A DNA stretch of 35,407 nucleotides from Comamonadaceae bacterium (GTDB lineage: Bacteria > Pseudomonadota > Gammaproteobacteria > Burkholderiales > Burkholderiaceae_C): the NCBI GenBank assembly GCA_947487355.1, contig CANKXC010000003.1, positions 1 through 35,407 of the forward strand. Reading direction: 5' to 3'. Below are positions 1,452 to 22,752 of this stretch, in pieces. The stretch's first letter is position 1; each line of letters starts with the position of its first letter. Made by a program: the position numbers and the translations under genes. The notes beneath the pieces were generated by a model that saw nothing but the letters and a program-made list of their open reading frames with translations, did no database searches and had not been told where the DNA came from.

Positions 1452-3875
1452 ATGACCTATTCTCTTCGCACCCTCAACAGCGCTAACGGCACACCTGAAT
1501 CCGACCTGCAAAACCAAACGTCGGAAGGTGTTGGCTTACTGCGTTTCACCCAAGAAATTGTTTTATTGATAGGCGCTGTCAGCTGGCTGGCCTTGGCCTT
1601 GGCCATGTTCAGTTACAGCCCCAAAGACCCCTCTTGGTCCGGTTCAGGTTTGGGCGGTCCCTTGGTCAATTGGATGGGGACTGCGGGGGCCTGGGTGGCC
1701 GATGGCATGTACTTTTGCTTTGGTTATTCCGCTTGGTGGTTGGTGGCTGTTTTGGGGCGTGCGTGGCTCAAGGCTTGGGCCTACTGGTTAAGAGGATCTG
1801 ACGCTGCGGCCAATCCTAAACTTCGCGAAGAATCTAATTGGCAGACGCGGCTTATTTTTTGGTTGGGCCTTTTTGTATTGATGTCCGCCAGTTGCGCCAT
1901 TGAATGGGGGCGCTTGGCGCGTTGGGATGCCATCATGCCGGGTACCAGTGGTGGTGCGCTGGGCTTAACGGTAGGGCACTTTACTGCCAAATGGCTGGGT
2001 GCCAACGGTGCCGCATTGTTTGAAATTGTGTGCTTGGCCTTGGGCATGTCTTGGGCATTTGGATTTTCATGGGGCCAGGTTTGCGAAAACCTCGGCGCCA
2101 AAATTGATTCTCTGATGCAGTCACGACAAGAAAAGCGCGAAATGCAAGAAGACTTGGCCATGGGCCAGCAGGCTTTGCGCGAGCGCGAGCAACTCCAATC
2201 GAACACGCCTGTTGAACCTCAACTGCATCCCTTTGGTGATGAGTTTGAAGAGAAGCCGCTGTTTGCTGCGGCAGGGGTGGCTGCGCCAGTTTTTGCTGAG
2301 CCTGTTCCTCCCATGGTCATTGAGTCGCCTGTGACCGAAGTGCCACGCAGCGAGCGAGTGGTCAAAGAGCGCCAAAAGCCATTGTTCTCAGAATTACCCG
2401 ACAGCAAATTACCGCAGGTTGATTTGCTCGACAGCCTCACGCAGCGACAAGAAGGGGTATCGCCAGAAACTCTGGAGATGACCAGCCGCATGATTGAAAA
2501 ACGCCTGAAAGATTTTGGCGTTGAAGTGCGCGTGGTCGCTGCGGCGCCGGGTCCTGTCATTACGCGTTATGAAATTGAACCCGCCACCGGTGTCAAGGGC
2601 TCGCAAGTGGTCAACTTGGCCAAAGACTTGGCGCGCTCACTCAGCTTAATTTCCATTCGCGTGGTTGAAACCATTCCAGGCAAAAATTTCATGGCTTTGG
2701 AGTTGCCCAATGCCAAACGCCAATCCATCAAGCTCAGCGAAATTTTGGGCTCTCAGGTTTACAACGAAGCCAAGTCCATGCTCACCATGGGTTTGGGCAA
2801 AGACATTGTGGGCAATCCTGTGGTTGCCGATTTGGCCAAAATGCCGCACGTTTTGGTGGCGGGTACCACGGGTTCTGGTAAGTCCGTTGGTATCAATGCC
2901 ATGATTTTGTCGCTGCTCTACAAAGCCGAAGCGCGTGATGTTCGCTTGCTCATGATCGATCCCAAGATGTTGGAAATGTCGGTCTACGAAGGTATTCCGC
3001 ACTTGCTAGCGCCGGTTGTCACAGACATGCGACAAGCTGCACACGGCCTCAACTGGTGCGTAGGTGAAATGGAACGCCGCTACAAGTTGATGAGCAAAAT
3101 GGGTGTTCGCAACTTGGCAGGCTACAACGCCAAAATTGACGATGCGACCGAGCGCGAAGAATTCATTTTGAATCCGTTCAGTCTCACGCCCGACGATCCT
3201 GAACCTCTCAAACGCTTGCCGCACATTGTGGTGGTCATCGATGAGTTGGCCGACTTGATGATGGTGGTGGGCAAGAAGATTGAAGAGCTCATTGCACGCT
3301 TGGCACAAAAAGCGCGCGCCGCTGGCATTCACCTTATTTTGGCCACACAGCGCCCCAGTGTCGATGTCATTACTGGCTTGATTAAGGCCAACATTCCAAC
3401 GCGCATCGCTTTTCAAGTCTCCAGCAAAATCGACAGCCGAACCATTCTGGACCAAATGGGTGCTGAAGCTTTGCTGGGCATGGGCGACATGCTTTACATG
3501 CCATCCGGTACAGGATTCCCCATTCGAGTTCACGGCGCTTTTGTAAGCGACGAAGAAGTGCACCGTGTGGTCAGCTATTTGAAGTCACAGGGCGAACCAG
3601 ATTACATCGAAGGTGTGTTGGAAGGTGGCACCACCGATGGCGAAGACACGGGTTACGGTGATGCCAGTGATGCAGAAAAAGACCCCATGTACGACCAAGC
3701 TGTCGAAGTGGTTCTGAAGAATCGCAAGGCCAGTATTTCATTGGTTCAGCGCCATCTCAAAATTGGTTACAACCGTGCAGCACGTTTGGTCGAAGAGATG
3801 GAAAAAGCGGGCTTGGTCAGTTCCATGAGCACCAACGGTCAGCGTGAAATTTTGGTGCCTGCGCGCACCGAATGA
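1452..3875 (+). CDS. ftsK: DNA translocase FtsK
   Basis: N-terminal TM segments, Walker [17 protein letters not shown]-terminal gamma winged helix ([29 protein letters not shown]). Confidence 0.97.
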
Positions 3876-15161: not shown

Positions 15162-15974
15162 TCAGGGATTGCAAACATCACAGTTTTTTGCGGGCGCAAC
15201 TTCTATTAGCGGATGTACTTCAGAGAAATTACAGTGCAGACAATTCCATTTTTCTGCCTTTGGAATACGCGTTGGCGTACTGCATATTTCACACGGCGCA
15301 CCATTGAGCATCTCAGTTAAGCCATAACCCGGCAATTTGCAGTGAGGACAAAAGGATTGCAACAATGCAGATAGCTTTTCTGCCGTGTTTTGAATCGTTT
15401 GCATTCTGTTCGGGTTCATGTGTGCACGCATATCGGTCTCTAGCCATACCGATGCTGAAACTTTCAGCGCAGCGTGAATTCGATCGATCAATGTATTGGC
15501 GTCTTGGACGCCTTTTGCAAAAAAACTGTCTTGAGGCGTGCCAATGATGAGGCCATGAGATGGAAAACCAACCTTCTGTGCAAAGCTCAAAGCGTGATCG
15601 ATCGAGTTTATTTTTTCGGAAGAAAAATTGGTTTCTGAAGAGCCAAAAATTGCATAAATGGCGTGTTCATGCAAGCGATCCCAAAGCGCAAGAACTTCTA
15701 AATTCCATGGCAGTAAATAAACTTGTGGATGAGGTCCAAACGATCCCTCGCTGCCTAAGCCGTATCGGCAGTTTGTGAGTTCGGTTGCCAGTTGTGCTTT
15801 TTTCAGGGCTGTTTGAACTTGCGTCAGCGGTCGATCAACCTCACCCGTGAAGGTGCCCAAAGAGTCAGTGTCAAAGTTGTCGACCACACGAATTATGTAG
15901 CCTTGCTTTAGCAAGACAGGTGCGACAACCGTTTCTTTGTGATGGCAGGTTAAAAAAGCAACTTCTTTTTGCAT
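15162..15974 (-). CDS. Protein of unknown function, likely DUF6671 family, with C-terminal zinc-ribbon-like cysteines
   Basis: Four CxxC pairs (CPHC, CEIC, CLHC, CDVC) in the C-terminal third; distinctive GLGSEGSFGPHP and ETDMRAHMNPNRM motifs. Family name is from recall. Confidence 0.75.
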   Translation of the reverse strand: MQKEVAFLTCHHKETVVAPVLLKQGYIIRVVDNFDTDSLGTFTGEVDRPLTQVQTALKKAQLATELTNCRYGLGSEGSFGPHPQVYLLPWNLEVLALWDRLHEHAIYAIFGSSETNFSSEKINSIDHALSFAQKVGFPSHGLIIGTPQDSFFAKGVQDANTLIDRIHAALKVSASVWLETDMRAHMNPNRMQTIQNTAEKLSALLQSFCPHCKLPGYGLTEMLNGAPCEICSTPTRIPKAEKWNCLHCNFSEVHPLIEVAPAKNCDVCNP

Positions 15975-15983
15975 GGACAGGTC

Positions 15984-16946
15984 TTAATTGATGACCCATC
16001 TTGCCATAAAGTCATAAAAGGGGATGCCAAAAATGATGTTCAAGGGGAATGTCAGTCCGAGTGACAGACCCAGGTACAGAGAAGGCGAGGCTTCAGGAAT
16101 GGCCAGTTTGAGTGCGGCTGGAACAGCAATGTAGGACGCACTGGCCGCCAAAACCATGAGCAGCAAACTGTCTCCCAATGACATTCCCAGGGCTTGGGCA
16201 AGCATCAAAGCAATGAAGCTGTGGGCGATGGGCCCCAGAATGGCGTAGGCAATTAAAAAGGGTGAATTGCCTTTTAAGTTGTGAAAATTTCTAGCGGCTG
16301 TCAGGCCCATGTCTAAAAGAAAGAACGCCAACATGCCCTTGAATAAATCGACAGAGAAGGGCGCCATCATGGCCTTGCCTTGATCGCCAGACAGCATGCC
16401 CACCAGCATGGCGCCCAACAAGAGTAACTGAGCGCCGTCTGTCAGCGACTCGTGCAGCGTTTGTTTCAGCGTATGAACATGTGGCACTGCGCTGATTTTT
16501 TTTCTGATGCCATTCACCCAAAAAACTGCTAACAAAATGGCGGGCGATTCCATGACGGCCATTGCCGCTGACATGTGGCCTGAATATGGAATTTTTTGAC
16601 CATCTAAGTACTGCACAGTGGCCATGAAGGTCACCGCACTCACTGATCCGTAGGTTGCTGCAATGGCAGCAGCATCGAAGGGGCCGGTAATTCGTTTGAG
16701 AATTTGATAGCCCACAGCAGGAACTAAAAATGCCAAGAAAATGGCTGCACCTAAGCCCTTGGCGACATCTTGAGTTAGGCCCGATTGAGAAAGCGCAAAG
16801 CCACCCTTCAAGCCCAAGGCCATGAGCAGATAGAGGGAGAGAAACTTGGAGATCTGTTGAGGAATTTCCAAGTTGGATTTGATTAAGCCCGCGACGATGC
16901 CAAATATGAAAAAAAGAATGGCCGGGTCGAAGAAATTGTTAAGCAC
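15984..16946 (-). CDS. Sodium-dependent bicarbonate transport family permease (SbtA-like); GTG 16946 proposed as start (ATG 17000 is the ORF-track start)
   Basis: NNFFDPAILFFIFGIVAGLIKSNLEIPQQISKFLSLYLLMALGLKGGFAL, GPFDAAAIAATYGSVSAVTFMATVQYL, GLTFPLNIIFGIPFY match the SbtA/DUF897 pattern. Confidence 0.88.
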   Translation of the reverse strand: MLNNFFDPAILFFIFGIVAGLIKSNLEIPQQISKFLSLYLLMALGLKGGFALSQSGLTQDVAKGLGAAIFLAFLVPAVGYQILKRITGPFDAAAIAATYGSVSAVTFMATVQYLDGQKIPYSGHMSAAMAVMESPAILLAVFWVNGIRKKISAVPHVHTLKQTLHESLTDGAQLLLLGAMLVGMLSGDQGKAMMAPFSVDLFKGMLAFFLLDMGLTAARNFHNLKGNSPFLIAYAILGPIAHSFIALMLAQALGMSLGDSLLLMVLAASASYIAVPAALKLAIPEASPSLYLGLSLGLTFPLNIIFGIPFYDFMARWVIN

Positions 16947-17020
16947 AGCGCGATCGTAAAGATTTTTATCAATCGGAAAAAGAAGATAATTTCGAATCAA
17001 TAGTCTGGAATAAACTGAAT

Positions 17021-17905
17021 ATGAGCAGCCAATTCAATTACAAGCACCTTTATTACTTTTGGGTCGTTGCCAAAGAAGGCGGCATATCCAGAGCTGCCGA
17101 AAAGCTGGGCATGGCAGTGCAAACGGTCAGTGCGCAAGTCAGGGAATTGGAAAAGTCATTGGGCTACGGTCTTCTGAAACCCGCAGGTCGAGGCCTGGTC
17201 TTGACCGAAGCTGGCATTGCGGCCATGAAGCAAGCGGATCAAATTTTTCAGTTGGGTGAGGCGCTACCCACCAGAGTTAAAGACGCCGCAAGCGTCCCGG
17301 CTGTTCGCTTAACGGTGGGAATCTGCGACAGCCTACCCAAAATGGTGGCGCATCGACTTTTGCTCCCCGTCATTGGCGTTAAAAATTTAAAGCTAACTTG
17401 TTATGAAGGTCAGTTGGACGATCTGTTGGGTGACTTGGCTTTGCATCGACTGGATGTGGTCTTGTCAGACCGACCCGCATCATTCAATCCCAACATTAAG
17501 TTGTACAGCCATGCGCTGGGGGTGACAGACATTGCCTGGTACGGCAATTCAAAAATGGTGAAGGCAAGTCAGCGCAATTTCCCTAAATGCTTAGAAACTA
17601 TTCCGGTCTTGTTGCCGACGGCGCACACGGCTGTCCGCGATCGATTGGACCACTGGTTTGAACAGCGCGCCATCAAGCCAAATATTGTGGGCGAATTTGA
17701 GGACAGTGCACTCTTAAAAACATTTGGCGCCAACGGCATGGGTGTGTTTCCGGCGGCCGAATGGGTGTATGCAGATTTAACAGCGCATTACGCTGTGCAC
17801 CGTTTGGGCGCTTGCGAAGGAGTGAAAGAACATTTTTTTGCCATTGGTACAGAGCGTAAAGTTCAACACCCCCTGGTTCAACAATTGCTACAGCAAAAAT
17901 TGTGA
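17021..17905 (+). CDS. LysR-family transcriptional regulator, NhaR-like
   Basis: NYKHLYYFWVVAKEGGISRAAEKLGMAVQTVSAQVRELEKSLGYGLLKPAGRGLVLTEAG; divergent from the SbtA-like gene. Confidence 0.92.
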   Translation: MSSQFNYKHLYYFWVVAKEGGISRAAEKLGMAVQTVSAQVRELEKSLGYGLLKPAGRGLVLTEAGIAAMKQADQIFQLGEALPTRVKDAASVPAVRLTVGICDSLPKMVAHRLLLPVIGVKNLKLTCYEGQLDDLLGDLALHRLDVVLSDRPASFNPNIKLYSHALGVTDIAWYGNSKMVKASQRNFPKCLETIPVLLPTAHTAVRDRLDHWFEQRAIKPNIVGEFEDSALLKTFGANGMGVFPAAEWVYADLTAHYAVHRLGACEGVKEHFFAIGTERKVQHPLVQQLLQQKL

Positions 17906-19019: not shown

Positions 19020-19958
19020 TTATTTGCCTAATAAAAACAGCACAGGTATGGCCAATCGATCAGCCCATACTCTTTCGTTGTGGCCTGTTCCCTCAAAGAC
19101 CCGCGTTAAGAAATTGGCTTGAGAGCCGCTTTCAGAATAGCCTTTGTCGCGAATGATTTGATTGATGAAGTTTTGATAAGGCGCATACAAGGCATCCAGT
19201 TCAGTGGTGCCGTGGTCTTGGTAGATTTTGTTTGTTTGTGGATTGGCCAATTTGTCTCTCAAATAAATGTACGCAGCCAGTGGAATGTGAGAGTTGGGTT
19301 GGTGAATGCCCATCCAATGCGTTGAAAGGCCTGCAGCACCGCCAAAAACCGCTGGATACTCATTCAGTGCGTAGATAGAAATAAGCCCTCCCATGCTCGA
19401 GCCCATGATGGCTGTGTGGGCGGGGCCTTTGTGAGTTGGGTACTTCGTGTCGATGTAGGGCTTGAGCTCATCGACCAAAAAACGCAAATAGGCGTCGGAT
19501 TGGGGTTTGTCCCTTAAGCCCTTTTGAATCAGCGTCTGTCTTGGCGCCTCTGGCATGTGAGGCAAAAACTTTTCTGGGAAATATTCACTGTGCCTAAACT
19601 GGCCGTTGTTCCATACGCCAACAATGATGGTGGGTGCCAATTGGCCCGACTTCATCAAGTGTGTGATGGTTTGGTCGGCGTTCCAAGCCTGCTTGTTCCA
19701 AGTGGTTTTGGCGTCAAAGAGCATTTGACCGTCATGCATGTAGAGCACATTGAAGCGTTGGCCTGACAATTTAATTTTTTCAAATTCGTCAGGCAGCCAA
19801 ACATCGATATGACGTGCTTGGACATTTTTTGAAGGGAAATTTTCAAGCCGTTCAATTTTGCCGGACTGAGGCACAGGCAAAGGGGGCGTGCTTTGGGCAA
19901 AGACCTGCAAAGTTAAAAAAAACTGGCATAACAGCAGACTGAAAAAGTGTCTAGTCAT
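19020..19958 (-). CDS. Secreted alpha/beta-hydrolase esterase (putative esterase / enterochelin-esterase fold); start trimmed to ATG 19958
   Basis: Signal peptide MTRHFFSLLLCQFFLTLQVFAQS; VWLPDEFE...VLYMHDGQMLFDAKTTW; nucleophile motif GSSMGG; C-terminal GTGHNERVWADRL. Confidence 0.88.
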   Translation of the reverse strand: MTRHFFSLLLCQFFLTLQVFAQSTPPLPVPQSGKIERLENFPSKNVQARHIDVWLPDEFEKIKLSGQRFNVLYMHDGQMLFDAKTTWNKQAWNADQTITHLMKSGQLAPTIIVGVWNNGQFRHSEYFPEKFLPHMPEAPRQTLIQKGLRDKPQSDAYLRFLVDELKPYIDTKYPTHKGPAHTAIMGSSMGGLISIYALNEYPAVFGGAAGLSTHWMGIHQPNSHIPLAAYIYLRDKLANPQTNKIYQDHGTTELDALYAPYQNFINQIIRDKGYSESGSQANFLTRVFEGTGHNERVWADRLAIPVLFLLGK

Positions 19959-20022: not shown

Positions 20023-20051
20023 TTGCATGAATGCTATATAGCATTTATACT
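20023..20051 (+). promoter_or_regulatory. Predicted sigma70 promoter with a palindromic operator in the spacer, driving XRE-TM-sppA
   Basis: -35-like TTGCAT (20023-20028), 17-bp spacer, -10-like TATACT (20046-20051); spacer holds perfect palindrome AATGCTATATAGCATT (20030-20045). Confidence 0.7.
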
Positions 20052-20057
20052 ACATGC

Positions 20058-20291
20058 ATGAGCCGCAACGAAGAAATACCAGTTTACAACCGCATTGCCC
20101 AGCAACGCGAGTTGTTGGGCATGTCTCGCCAGCAGCTGGCCGAGCTGGTGAGTGTGCATTATCAAACCATTGGTTATCTTGAGCGAGGCGAATACAGCCC
20201 CAGTTTGGTCTTGGCACTCAAAATTGCTGAAGTTTTGGGTCAAGACGTTCAAAGTTTGTTTTCAATCAAACCATTTCCGAAAGGCAAATGA
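20058..20291 (+). CDS. XRE-family HTH transcriptional regulator (ORF 20031 trimmed to ATG 20058)
   Basis: MSRNEEIPVYNRIAQQRELLGMSRQQLAELVSVHYQTIGYLERGEYSPSLVLALKIAEVLGQDVQSLFSI, a compact HTH_3. Confidence 0.93.
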   Translation: MSRNEEIPVYNRIAQQRELLGMSRQQLAELVSVHYQTIGYLERGEYSPSLVLALKIAEVLGQDVQSLFSIKPFPKGK

Positions 20292-20292
20292 C

Positions 20293-20823
20293 ATGAGCCA
20301 AAAGCCAGAGAAAAAGTTCTATTGGTCTACGGGTGTGACTCGAGACGAGGTTGTGAAAAGTTTGAATGACAGCCGTCATTCTGCATTGCATTCCCAAAGT
20401 AATCGGAGATGGCTGGTGTCTTTGACAGCGATTGCCTTGACCGTCATGGCCTTCACAACTTACATACCGCACCCTAAAGTTCGTTCCTACTTGGATATTC
20501 TCTTAATGGCCATTGTGTTGGTGGCTTATTTTCAATTGCGCAAATCTGTTCGCAATGTGGCAGATGCGCCCGACGAGTTGCTGGACGAAAGACAAATTTC
20601 GGTGCGTAATGCAGGTTACTTACACGCCTACCGTTACTTGGCCGCTATCGGTCTCCTGTATTTCTTAGTCTATTATTTCGTGAACCAAACTGAATTTTTC
20701 AAGTCAACCCTTGGATTGGAAAGTTCAAATTTGACGCAAGTGTTTTTTTCTTATTGCATGTGGGGAGCCTGCTTGCCCTCCATGGTTTTGGCTTGGTTGA
20801 TGCCTTCTGAAAATCAAAATTAA
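20293..20823 (+). CDS. Hypothetical membrane protein (about 4 TM) co-encoded with the XRE regulator
   Basis: ATG at 20293 in frame with ORF 20152; hydrophobic segments WLVSLTAIALTVMAFTTYI, YLDILLMAIVLVAYF, YLAAIGLLYFLVYYFV, CMWGACLPSMVLAWLM; starts immediately after the XRE stop. Confidence 0.85.
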   Translation: MSQKPEKKFYWSTGVTRDEVVKSLNDSRHSALHSQSNRRWLVSLTAIALTVMAFTTYIPHPKVRSYLDILLMAIVLVAYFQLRKSVRNVADAPDELLDERQISVRNAGYLHAYRYLAAIGLLYFLVYYFVNQTEFFKSTLGLESSNLTQVFFSYCMWGACLPSMVLAWLMPSENQN

Positions 20824-20835
20824 GGTGACTCAAAA

Positions 20836-22752
20836 ATGAAAAATTTATTTTCAAAAATCAAAGGATTTTTTCAACTGATCAATCAAGGACTTTTAAAAGT
20901 ATCAGATTGGATGACAAAAGGTCTTCGAATTGCGTTGGTCTTGGGTGTTCTGTTGTACGCCGTGGGCATTGGTTGGGTGGTTTTGTACTCAGACAAAGTC
21001 AACTTAGAAGACCCAACAGTTTTGGTGCTCGATCTGAAGGGGGTCTTGGTAGAGGAGTCGCCTGGTGGCTTAAAAGACCAAGTTTTGGGTGAAATTCAAG
21101 GCAATGCCACTGAAACCATTCGCTTGCGCGACCTGGCCATGACCCTGGAGTTGGCCGCCAAAGACAAGCACATTGACCGCGTCTTGCTCAAGCTAGACAA
21201 CTTCCAAGGTGGCGGTTTGGTCTCTCTCAGGGAAGCGGCCAGTGCCATTGAAAAATTCAAGGCCTCTGGTAAACCAGTTATCGCATGGTCGAGTATGTAC
21301 GACCAGCGTCAATACTATTTGGCAGCACAAGCCAATCAAATTTTGGTTCATCCCTTGGGGGGTGTCCTCATTGAAGGATTTGGCCGTTCACGCAATTACT
21401 ACAAAGATGCGCTGGACAAATTGGGCGTCAAAGCCAACCTCATTCGTGTTGGTCAATTCAAGTCTGCTGGCGAGCCCTATGTTTTGAATGCGCCATCAAC
21501 TGAAGCTTTAAAAGCGGAAGCGCATGTGTACGACGCCATGTGGTCTTTGTACACACAAGGTGTTGAAAAAGCCCGTAATTTGCCGCAAGGCAGCGTTTCC
21601 CAAAACATTGCCAAATTGCCCGATGCCTTGGTCAATGTCAAAGGCAACACTTCGCAATTGGCTTTGGATTGGAAATGGGTCGACAAGTTACAAACCTTTG
21701 AAGCCTTGCGTGAAACGCTCATGAAGGAAGTTGGCAAGAACGAAGATATTCAATCTTTTAGGCAAGTCCATTGGAAAGACTATTTGCGTTCTGAAATTCA
21801 AAAAGTCAAAGGCGACCACATTGCTGTGATTGTTGCTCAGGGCGAAATTGGCGATGGCCGTGAACCCGCTGGCAAAGTGGGTGGCCTGTCCACTTCTGAG
21901 CTCATTCGAAAAGCCACAGAAGACAAAGAAGTTAAGGCAATCGTCCTTCGCGTCAATTCGCCTGGGGGCAGTGTTTATGGCTCCGAATTAATTCGCGATC
22001 AGTTACAAATTGCGCGAGACAAAGGCAAGCCTGTGATCATTTCTATGGGTGACCTTGCGGCTTCTGGTGGCTATTGGATTTCCATGGCGTCTGACTTGGT
22101 CATTGCTGATCCGGCCACCATCACAGGTTCTATTGGCGTGTTTGCCATGTTGCCAACAGGCGAAGGTTTGATGAGCAAAATTGGTGTCAATACGGGTGGC
22201 TATAAAACCACTTGGTTGGCAGGCGCCTACGATCCTAGGAAGTCACTCGATCCTCGCATTCAAACCATGGTTCAGTCCAGCATTGAAAACATTTACACAG
22301 ACTTTATTGGCAAGGTATCTCAAACTCGCAAACTCGATTTGGCAAAGGTTGATGAATTGGCCCAAGGCCGCATCTGGACAGGCGCTCAAGCAGCTCAACA
22401 TCAGTTGGTCGATCGTTTGGGCAGCTTCTCCGATGCCATTCAAGAGGCTCGTCAACGCGTGGCCAAATTGGAGGGCCAAACAGAAGCCAGTGCAAAAGAC
22501 ATGCCTTTTAAATATGCAGGCCCCAAAAAATCAGCCTTTGAAAAGATTGCGCAAAAATTCATAGGCCAAATCGGTTCGACTGAAGCAGACCAATCTGGCC
22601 TGTCGCAGTGGGTTCAATTGACCGGATTGGTGGGCAGCGAAGCTGTGTTGTTTCAAACGCTGGGGCAAGATTTGTCTTGGTTGCAAACGGTCATTGCAAA
22701 GCAGCAACCATTCGGTGCTGCGGCACATTGTTTGTGTGAAATCACACCCTAA
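20836..22752 (+). CDS. sppA: Signal peptide peptidase SppA, 67K type (S49 peptidase)
   Basis: Tandem S49 domains; lysine region VGQFKSAGEPY and serine region MGDLAASGGYWISMASD; N-terminal TM anchor. Confidence 0.94.
   Translation: MKNLFSKIKGFFQLINQGLLKVSDWMTKGLRIALVLGVLLYAVGIGWVVLYSDKVNLEDPTVLVLDLKGVLVEESPGGLKDQVLGEIQGNATETIRLRDLAMTLELAAKDKHIDRVLLKLDNFQGGGLVSLREAASAIEKFKASGKPVIAWSSMYDQRQYYLAAQANQILVHPLGGVLIEGFGRSRNYYKDALDKLGVKANLIRVGQFKSAGEPYVLNAPSTEALKAEAHVYDAMWSLYTQGVEKARNLPQGSVSQNIAKLPDALVNVKGNTSQLALDWKWVDKLQTFEALRETLMKEVGKNEDIQSFRQVHWKDYLRSEIQKVKGDHIAVIVAQGEIGDGREPAGKVGGLSTSELIRKATEDKEVKAIVLRVNSPGGSVYGSELIRDQLQIARDKGKPVIISMGDLAASGGYWISMASDLVIADPATITGSIGVFAMLPTGEGLMSKIGVNTGGYKTTWLAGAYDPRKSLDPRIQTMVQSSIENIYTDFIGKVSQTRKLDLAKVDELAQGRIWTGAQAAQHQLVDRLGSFSDAIQEARQRVAKLEGQTEASAKDMPFKYAGPKKSAFEKIAQKFIGQIGSTEADQSGLSQWVQLTGLVGSEAVLFQTLGQDLSWLQTVIAKQQPFGAAAHCLCEITP

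Follow-up and report, generated by a model that had tools for sequence, protein, structure and literature searches.

Phage lambda cI, expressed from PRM, is a self-repressing regulator with a leaderless message, and operators of the 434 type have the form ACAA-N6-TTGT. C proteins bind as dimers to two quasi-palindromes on opposite sides of the helix, with about 4 bp between them (PMC4321490). The message of C.AhdI has no leader (PMC5333194; also PMC4824078). At the cytolysin locus of Enterococcus faecalis, a small HTH repressor (CylR2) is paired with a small multi-helix membrane protein (CylR1) that has been proposed to relay a signal; CylR1 has three predicted helices and is required for inducing the CylR2-repressed operon (PMC3709268).

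We analysed a 35,407-nt stretch of contig CANKXC010000003.1 (forward strand; hereafter the window) from Limnohabitans, a freshwater bacterium, in which the gene for a small XRE regulator is followed by genes for a membrane protein and an SppA peptidase (Table 1). Like controllers of the C.AhdI class, the XRE protein has a small, single-domain HTH_3 fold (top structure match 1y7y), and its gene has candidate tandem quasi-palindromic operators by its own promoter, with centres about 15–16 bp apart, and a predicted leaderless start. The half-site here is TAGCAT, whereas that of C proteins is GACT/AGTC. Unlike C proteins, which also activate, the proposed operators cover both the -35 and the -10, and plain autorepression would therefore be expected. 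Methyltransferase and endonuclease genes were absent among the window ORFs scanned, and since there are no restriction-modification genes we do not class the XRE as a C protein.

As in CylR2/CylR1, a predicted small HTH repressor, the XRE, is paired with a membrane protein, and the XRE scores as CylR2-like. Unlike that locus, this one has no cytolysin-like genes, the order is XRE then membrane protein, and the paired operon differs; the two proteins resemble the CylR pair rather than being classed as a proven one. The predicted arrangement also recalls lambda cI in placing repressor sites on the core promoter and the start codon at the 5′ end, but lineage, operator sequence and operon content differ. 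With 434-type operators it shares a 14-bp dyad whose half-site centres are 10 bp apart (TTGC-N6-GCTA and TAGC-N6-ACTA here), differing in the half-site letters and in a tandem spacing of 16 bp.

Table 1. Positions of the promoter elements, proposed operators and genes at the XRE locus in the window
Feature	Position	Strand	Basis or remark
Putative esterase, divergent; outside the unit	19020–19958	-	Kept in L005, replaced elsewhere
-35 hexamer TTGCAT; would double as outer half-site of OL (consensus TAGCAT)	20023–20028	+	Sequence and orthologues
Proposed operator OL, TTGCATGAATGCTA	20023–20036	+	Holds the -35; perfect palindrome TAGCATGAATGCTA, both arms, in L004
Perfect 16-bp palindrome AATGCTATATAGCATT; OL/OR junction in the favoured reading	20030–20045	+	Equals its own reverse complement
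Proposed operator OR, TAGCATTTATACTA	20039–20052	+	Holds the -10; arms perfectly paired (TAGCATTTATGCTA) in L017
-10 hexamer TATACT; all but first base within OR	20046–20051	+	Sequence and orthologues
Predicted transcription start on the A of the XRE ATG (leaderless)	20058	+	Spacing from -10, no Shine-Dalgarno
XRE/HTH_3 regulator, 77 aa, CylR2/C.AhdI-like fold	20058–20291	+	Domain and structure matches
Membrane protein, 176 aa, four long predicted helices, LDERQ motif	20293–20823	+	No Pfam family
SppA, 67K-type signal peptide peptidase, probably co-transcribed	20836–22752	+	12-nt gap, AAGG Shine-Dalgarno

Regulator and membrane-protein partner

The XRE protein belongs to HTH_3 (PF01381, 50.2 bits against a cut-off of 23). 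Its predicted model has five helices, with high pLDDT in the HTH, and the top fold matches of that model include C.AhdI (the top structure match), CylR2 and a Deinococcus regulator. CylR2 (1utx) is also the best sequence match among solved structures (E 1e-7; TM 0.83 by target length). The gene for the membrane protein begins one base past the XRE stop. This protein matched no Pfam or NCBIfam family, and its model, of moderate confidence, had no structural match.

Beyond the window genome, a class-level search with the XRE returned only generic CylR2-like XREs, and an order-level search with the membrane protein matched the window genome alone. The pairing of an XRE with an LDERQ/LDEW-like membrane protein recurs on plasmids of Sphingomonas, Streptomyces and Tsukamurella, for which profile comparison to the window family gave probabilities of 96%, 70% and 84%, respectively. 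Two other arrangements were seen among homologues. In an alphaproteobacterial locus (L040, genome G1496, reverse strand, about 1720–3220), three small membrane proteins are encoded in a row after the XRE, and all three have a DER(E) motif. In Nonomuraea, Nocardia and on a Rhodococcus plasmid (L022, L023 and L025), ABC transporter genes immediately precede a close XRE homologue; the starts overlap or are closely spaced, and no separate promoter dyad was seen for the homologue.

Promoter conservation and the start of the XRE message

A sequence-only reading had described TTGCAT and TATACT enclosing a perfect palindrome directly before the XRE start codon. On re-reading the sequence, the letters, coordinates and spacing of these elements and of the ATG are exact: the spacer is 17 bp, and 6 nt separate TATACT from the ATG at 20058. 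The XRE promoter is not among the listings of a consensus promoter scan of the window because its -35 fits TTGACA at just three of six positions.

The palindrome occurs once in the window even with three mismatches allowed, and TGCTATATAGCA occurs once in its own 1.66-Mb assembly even with one. Taken by itself the palindrome is weak evidence, and its significance comes from conservation rather than occurrence. A chance palindrome in an ordinary promoter could be entertained from the window itself, which holds three perfect 16-bp palindromes against 0.54 expected; the best inverted repeat within 75 nt before the XRE ATG has a local p of about 0.013. The orthologues refute chance, to which we give next to no weight. 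Across ten divergent promoters of the same XRE and membrane-protein cassette, in carriers found through both proteins, the 30-bp block TTGCATGAATGCTATATAGCATTTATACTA has a mean identity of 91%, compared with 33% for the 40 nt directly upstream and 56% at XRE third codon positions; the orthologues are mutually related, and these counts are not independent events. The block is thus conserved far beyond synonymous sites. Such an alignment had been put forward as a check by the earlier reading, and both the palindrome block and its spacing prove to be conserved.

The distance from the -10 to the ATG is equally steady, at 6 nt in nine of the ten promoters and 7 nt in the other (L016). No Shine-Dalgarno precedes the XRE in any of the ten, and its anti-Shine-Dalgarno pairing is the weakest among 21 window genes tested; the downstream genes have AAAGG (membrane protein) and AAGG (sppA). 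The steady gap and the missing Shine-Dalgarno support a leaderless start, defined as transcription beginning at the start codon or at most 10 nt before it. The leaderless initiation suggested for the XRE by the earlier reading is therefore well supported by comparison of sequences, and we infer it here on that basis. In Burkholderia cenocepacia, a betaproteobacterium with mapped transcripts, transcriptional regulators are enriched among leaderless genes (PMC4603805).

Another possibility is that the palindrome acts in RNA, as a terminator or 5′-UTR hairpin of a message begun farther upstream, with initiation at 20031 or 20058. A second ATG, in frame, does lie at 20031, upstream of the one at 20058. 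However, the DNA above the block is unconserved, the block itself fits a -35/-10 pair with a 17-bp spacer, there is no Shine-Dalgarno, the 20031 start is unconserved, and the palindrome stem has just two G-C pairs and no T-run. We consider an RNA role very unlikely. The ATG at 20031 was rejected as the XRE start, being missing in L008 and in another frame in L016, which makes 20058 the likely start.

In several alphaproteobacterial homologues the dyad lies farther upstream, with an apparent leader of about 20–30 nt, which means that not all of the wider family would be leaderless. It appears to be a trait of the Limnohabitans group, and perhaps of some actinobacteria, rather than of the whole family. 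Locus L038 has a short ORF (ATGATCGTGAAAACGCACTCATGA) ahead of the XRE. This ORF starts roughly 8 nt downstream of a possible -10 and its stop codon overlaps the start of the XRE, as though translation of the XRE were fed by a leaderless ORF upstream.

The proposed operator and its architecture

The site is confined to XRE genes. The ten cassette genomes hold nine exact ATGCTANNTAGCAT sites, every one in front of an XRE gene (control, 0), one of them serving the second XRE copy of G739, and in G692 (Limnohabitans sp. Rim11, the genus of the window) and G704 the site is present with one arm mismatch. Of 401 family genomes, 2 contain the extended pattern ATGCTAYRTAGCATNNATAMT with one mismatch allowed, and these two carry the XRE gene; the reversed pattern used as control is in none. 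A second CylR2-like XRE in the window genome (G000:C83:312-461, L002), with 48% identity over 50 residues, is without the operator. Viral contigs gave zero matches to the operator pattern and zero relatives of the XRE, and phage records gave weak XRE matches only. Upstream, the esterase is kept in L005 and other DNA takes its place in the other carriers, which assigns the site to the XRE gene. G739 carries two XRE copies (C4 and C25; L068 and L074), each with a full operator block, and no 67K SppA was found there.

Because the site is confined in this way, a dedicated self-regulator is the simplest reading, and autoregulation of the XRE is well supported by the comparison. That the XRE protein is what binds there is something we infer, which leaves room for an unlinked transcription factor to bind the site while the XRE regulates something else. 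We think this improbable: in the ten genomes the site co-occurs with the XRE gene, one per copy and none elsewhere, and homologues in other phyla have dyads of similar size in a similar place.

The conserved block is larger than the palindrome. It forms a 30-bp dyad of four 6-bp half-sites (TTGCAT, ATGCTA, TAGCAT and ATACTA, separated by GA, TA and TT), which follow one another in 8-bp steps and alternating direction, the outer two holding the -35 and most of the -10. The 40 half-sites of the ten promoters read T(A/T)G(C/T)AT with almost no exception. The -35 ends in CAT in nine of ten orthologues and in TAT in one, where the sigma-70 consensus would be ACA, and the C at position 5 of the -10 and the A that follows are invariant in all ten. 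In L004 the outer left half is an exact TAGCAT and in L017 the outer right an exact ATGCTA; both changes lead away from the promoter consensus and towards the half-site. In a simple simulation, with approximate hexamer frequencies, promoter demands alone would yield both outer half-sites with P of about 2e-4. These features suggest two operators, OL and OR, with the proposed consensus TWGCATNNATRCWA and, as read from the sequence alone, a separation of 2 bp.

A half-site pattern built from Limnohabitans alone, TWGYATNNATRCWA, was tested on the upstream regions of six alphaproteobacterial homologues, where it gave 13 mismatches compared with 23.6 expected (p = 0.001; for example, TTGTGTATATACAA in Sphingomonas). 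The opposite orientation gave 21 mismatches compared with 23.5 expected on the same six (p = 0.13). The sample behind this orientation test is small and its expectation comes from simple shuffles, and the two-operator reading was arrived at once the sequences had been inspected. A looser half-site pattern, TWGYRT, was dropped as post hoc in favour of the Limnohabitans-only pattern, and we base no claim on a comparison with generic XRE upstream regions, for which five controls were usable. The pattern fits actinobacterial homologues poorly, but two of them have 14-bp dyads of their own, TTGGGTTTTCCCAA in Tsukamurella and TTAGGTTTTCCTAA in Rhodococcus gordoniae, which end 9–11 nt before the XRE start codon.

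The perfect palindrome is therefore probably the junction of tandem OL and OR rather than the bound unit; we favour this reading because it explains more of the conservation and matches the operators of distant homologues. The alternative is a single operator, with one XRE dimer on the central palindrome occluding polymerase from within the spacer and the outer similarities arising as by-products of the promoter hexamers. The central dyad is perfect in the window, L005 and L007, its arms pair at six of six positions in eight of the ten promoters, which is as regular as OL and OR or more so, and the central half-sites are those nearest the consensus. Yet a single operator leaves unexplained the invariant AT of the -35 and the C and following A of the -10, its orientation is not found before the alphaproteobacterial homologues, and a central palindrome arises automatically from two tandem palindrome copies. 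We regard the single operator as doubtful. The earlier proposal of autorepression through the spacer palindrome thus holds up well as regards autorepression, whereas the palindrome itself is probably not the unit bound.

Residue 34 of the XRE recognition helix (20157–20159) varies within the family. Members carrying V-H-Y-Q-T go with TAGCAT half-sites in Limnohabitans and those carrying V-N-x-Q-T with TTGTGT-like ones in alphaproteobacteria, a possible specificity swap that is confounded by ancestry.

With tandem operators, the explanation we hold probable overall is an autoregulatory promoter of a small XRE repressor, with a leaderless mRNA, occlusion at OL and OR, and release through the membrane protein. 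Sigma-70 polymerase would start at the A of the XRE start codon or 1–2 nt from it, leaving the first gene leaderless. Two XRE dimers would bind the tandem 14-bp operators, one covering the -35 at OL and the other the -10 at OR; lying 16 bp apart, the two sites would be on roughly opposite faces of the helix. Bound dimers would exclude polymerase and keep the operon of XRE and membrane protein (with SppA where present) low. By analogy with CylR1, the membrane protein may release the XRE; it would probably do so, or sequester it, upon a membrane signal, as proposed for CylR1/CylR2.

SppA and the wider family

A regulator/membrane protein/SppA operon had been proposed from the window. Its two-gene core, the XRE and the LDERQ membrane protein, recurs, whereas SppA is attached only in the window clade. 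A 67K SppA above cut-off was found in five of seven cassette carriers and in none of eight non-carriers tested (one-sided Fisher p of about 0.007, for genomes that are not independent). The gene lies next to the cassette in the window, L005, L006 and L008, is unlinked in G162 and G773, and is absent in G695 and G739. Because this linkage is patchy, control of SppA would be a clade-level addition. We rejected a separate operator for SppA where the gene lies apart from the cassette, since G162 and G773 show no convincing site near it.

The locus provides a precise candidate operator for an unstudied cassette of XRE and membrane protein that occurs in several phyla and is linked in Limnohabitans to the SppA membrane protease. 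The circuit logic, self-repression with a leaderless start, has precedents in C proteins and phage repressors and for that reason is only moderately surprising in general; what is unstudied in this known type of circuit is the membrane-protein partner. As a more tentative possibility, the XRE and LDERQ-motif cassette of beta- and alphaproteobacteria and actinobacteria may be a widespread, uncharacterised CylR2/CylR1-like switch from membrane to DNA without a phosphorelay, in which the promoter hexamers of Limnohabitans serve as half-sites of two tandem operators and an inner-membrane protease comes under its control. Reading operators from single sequences holds a trap: where tandem operators meet, a perfect palindrome can form.

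Elsewhere in the window (15162–17000, minus strand), a DUF6671 protein lies beside an Sbt_1-family bicarbonate transporter, with a divergent LysR regulator at 17021.
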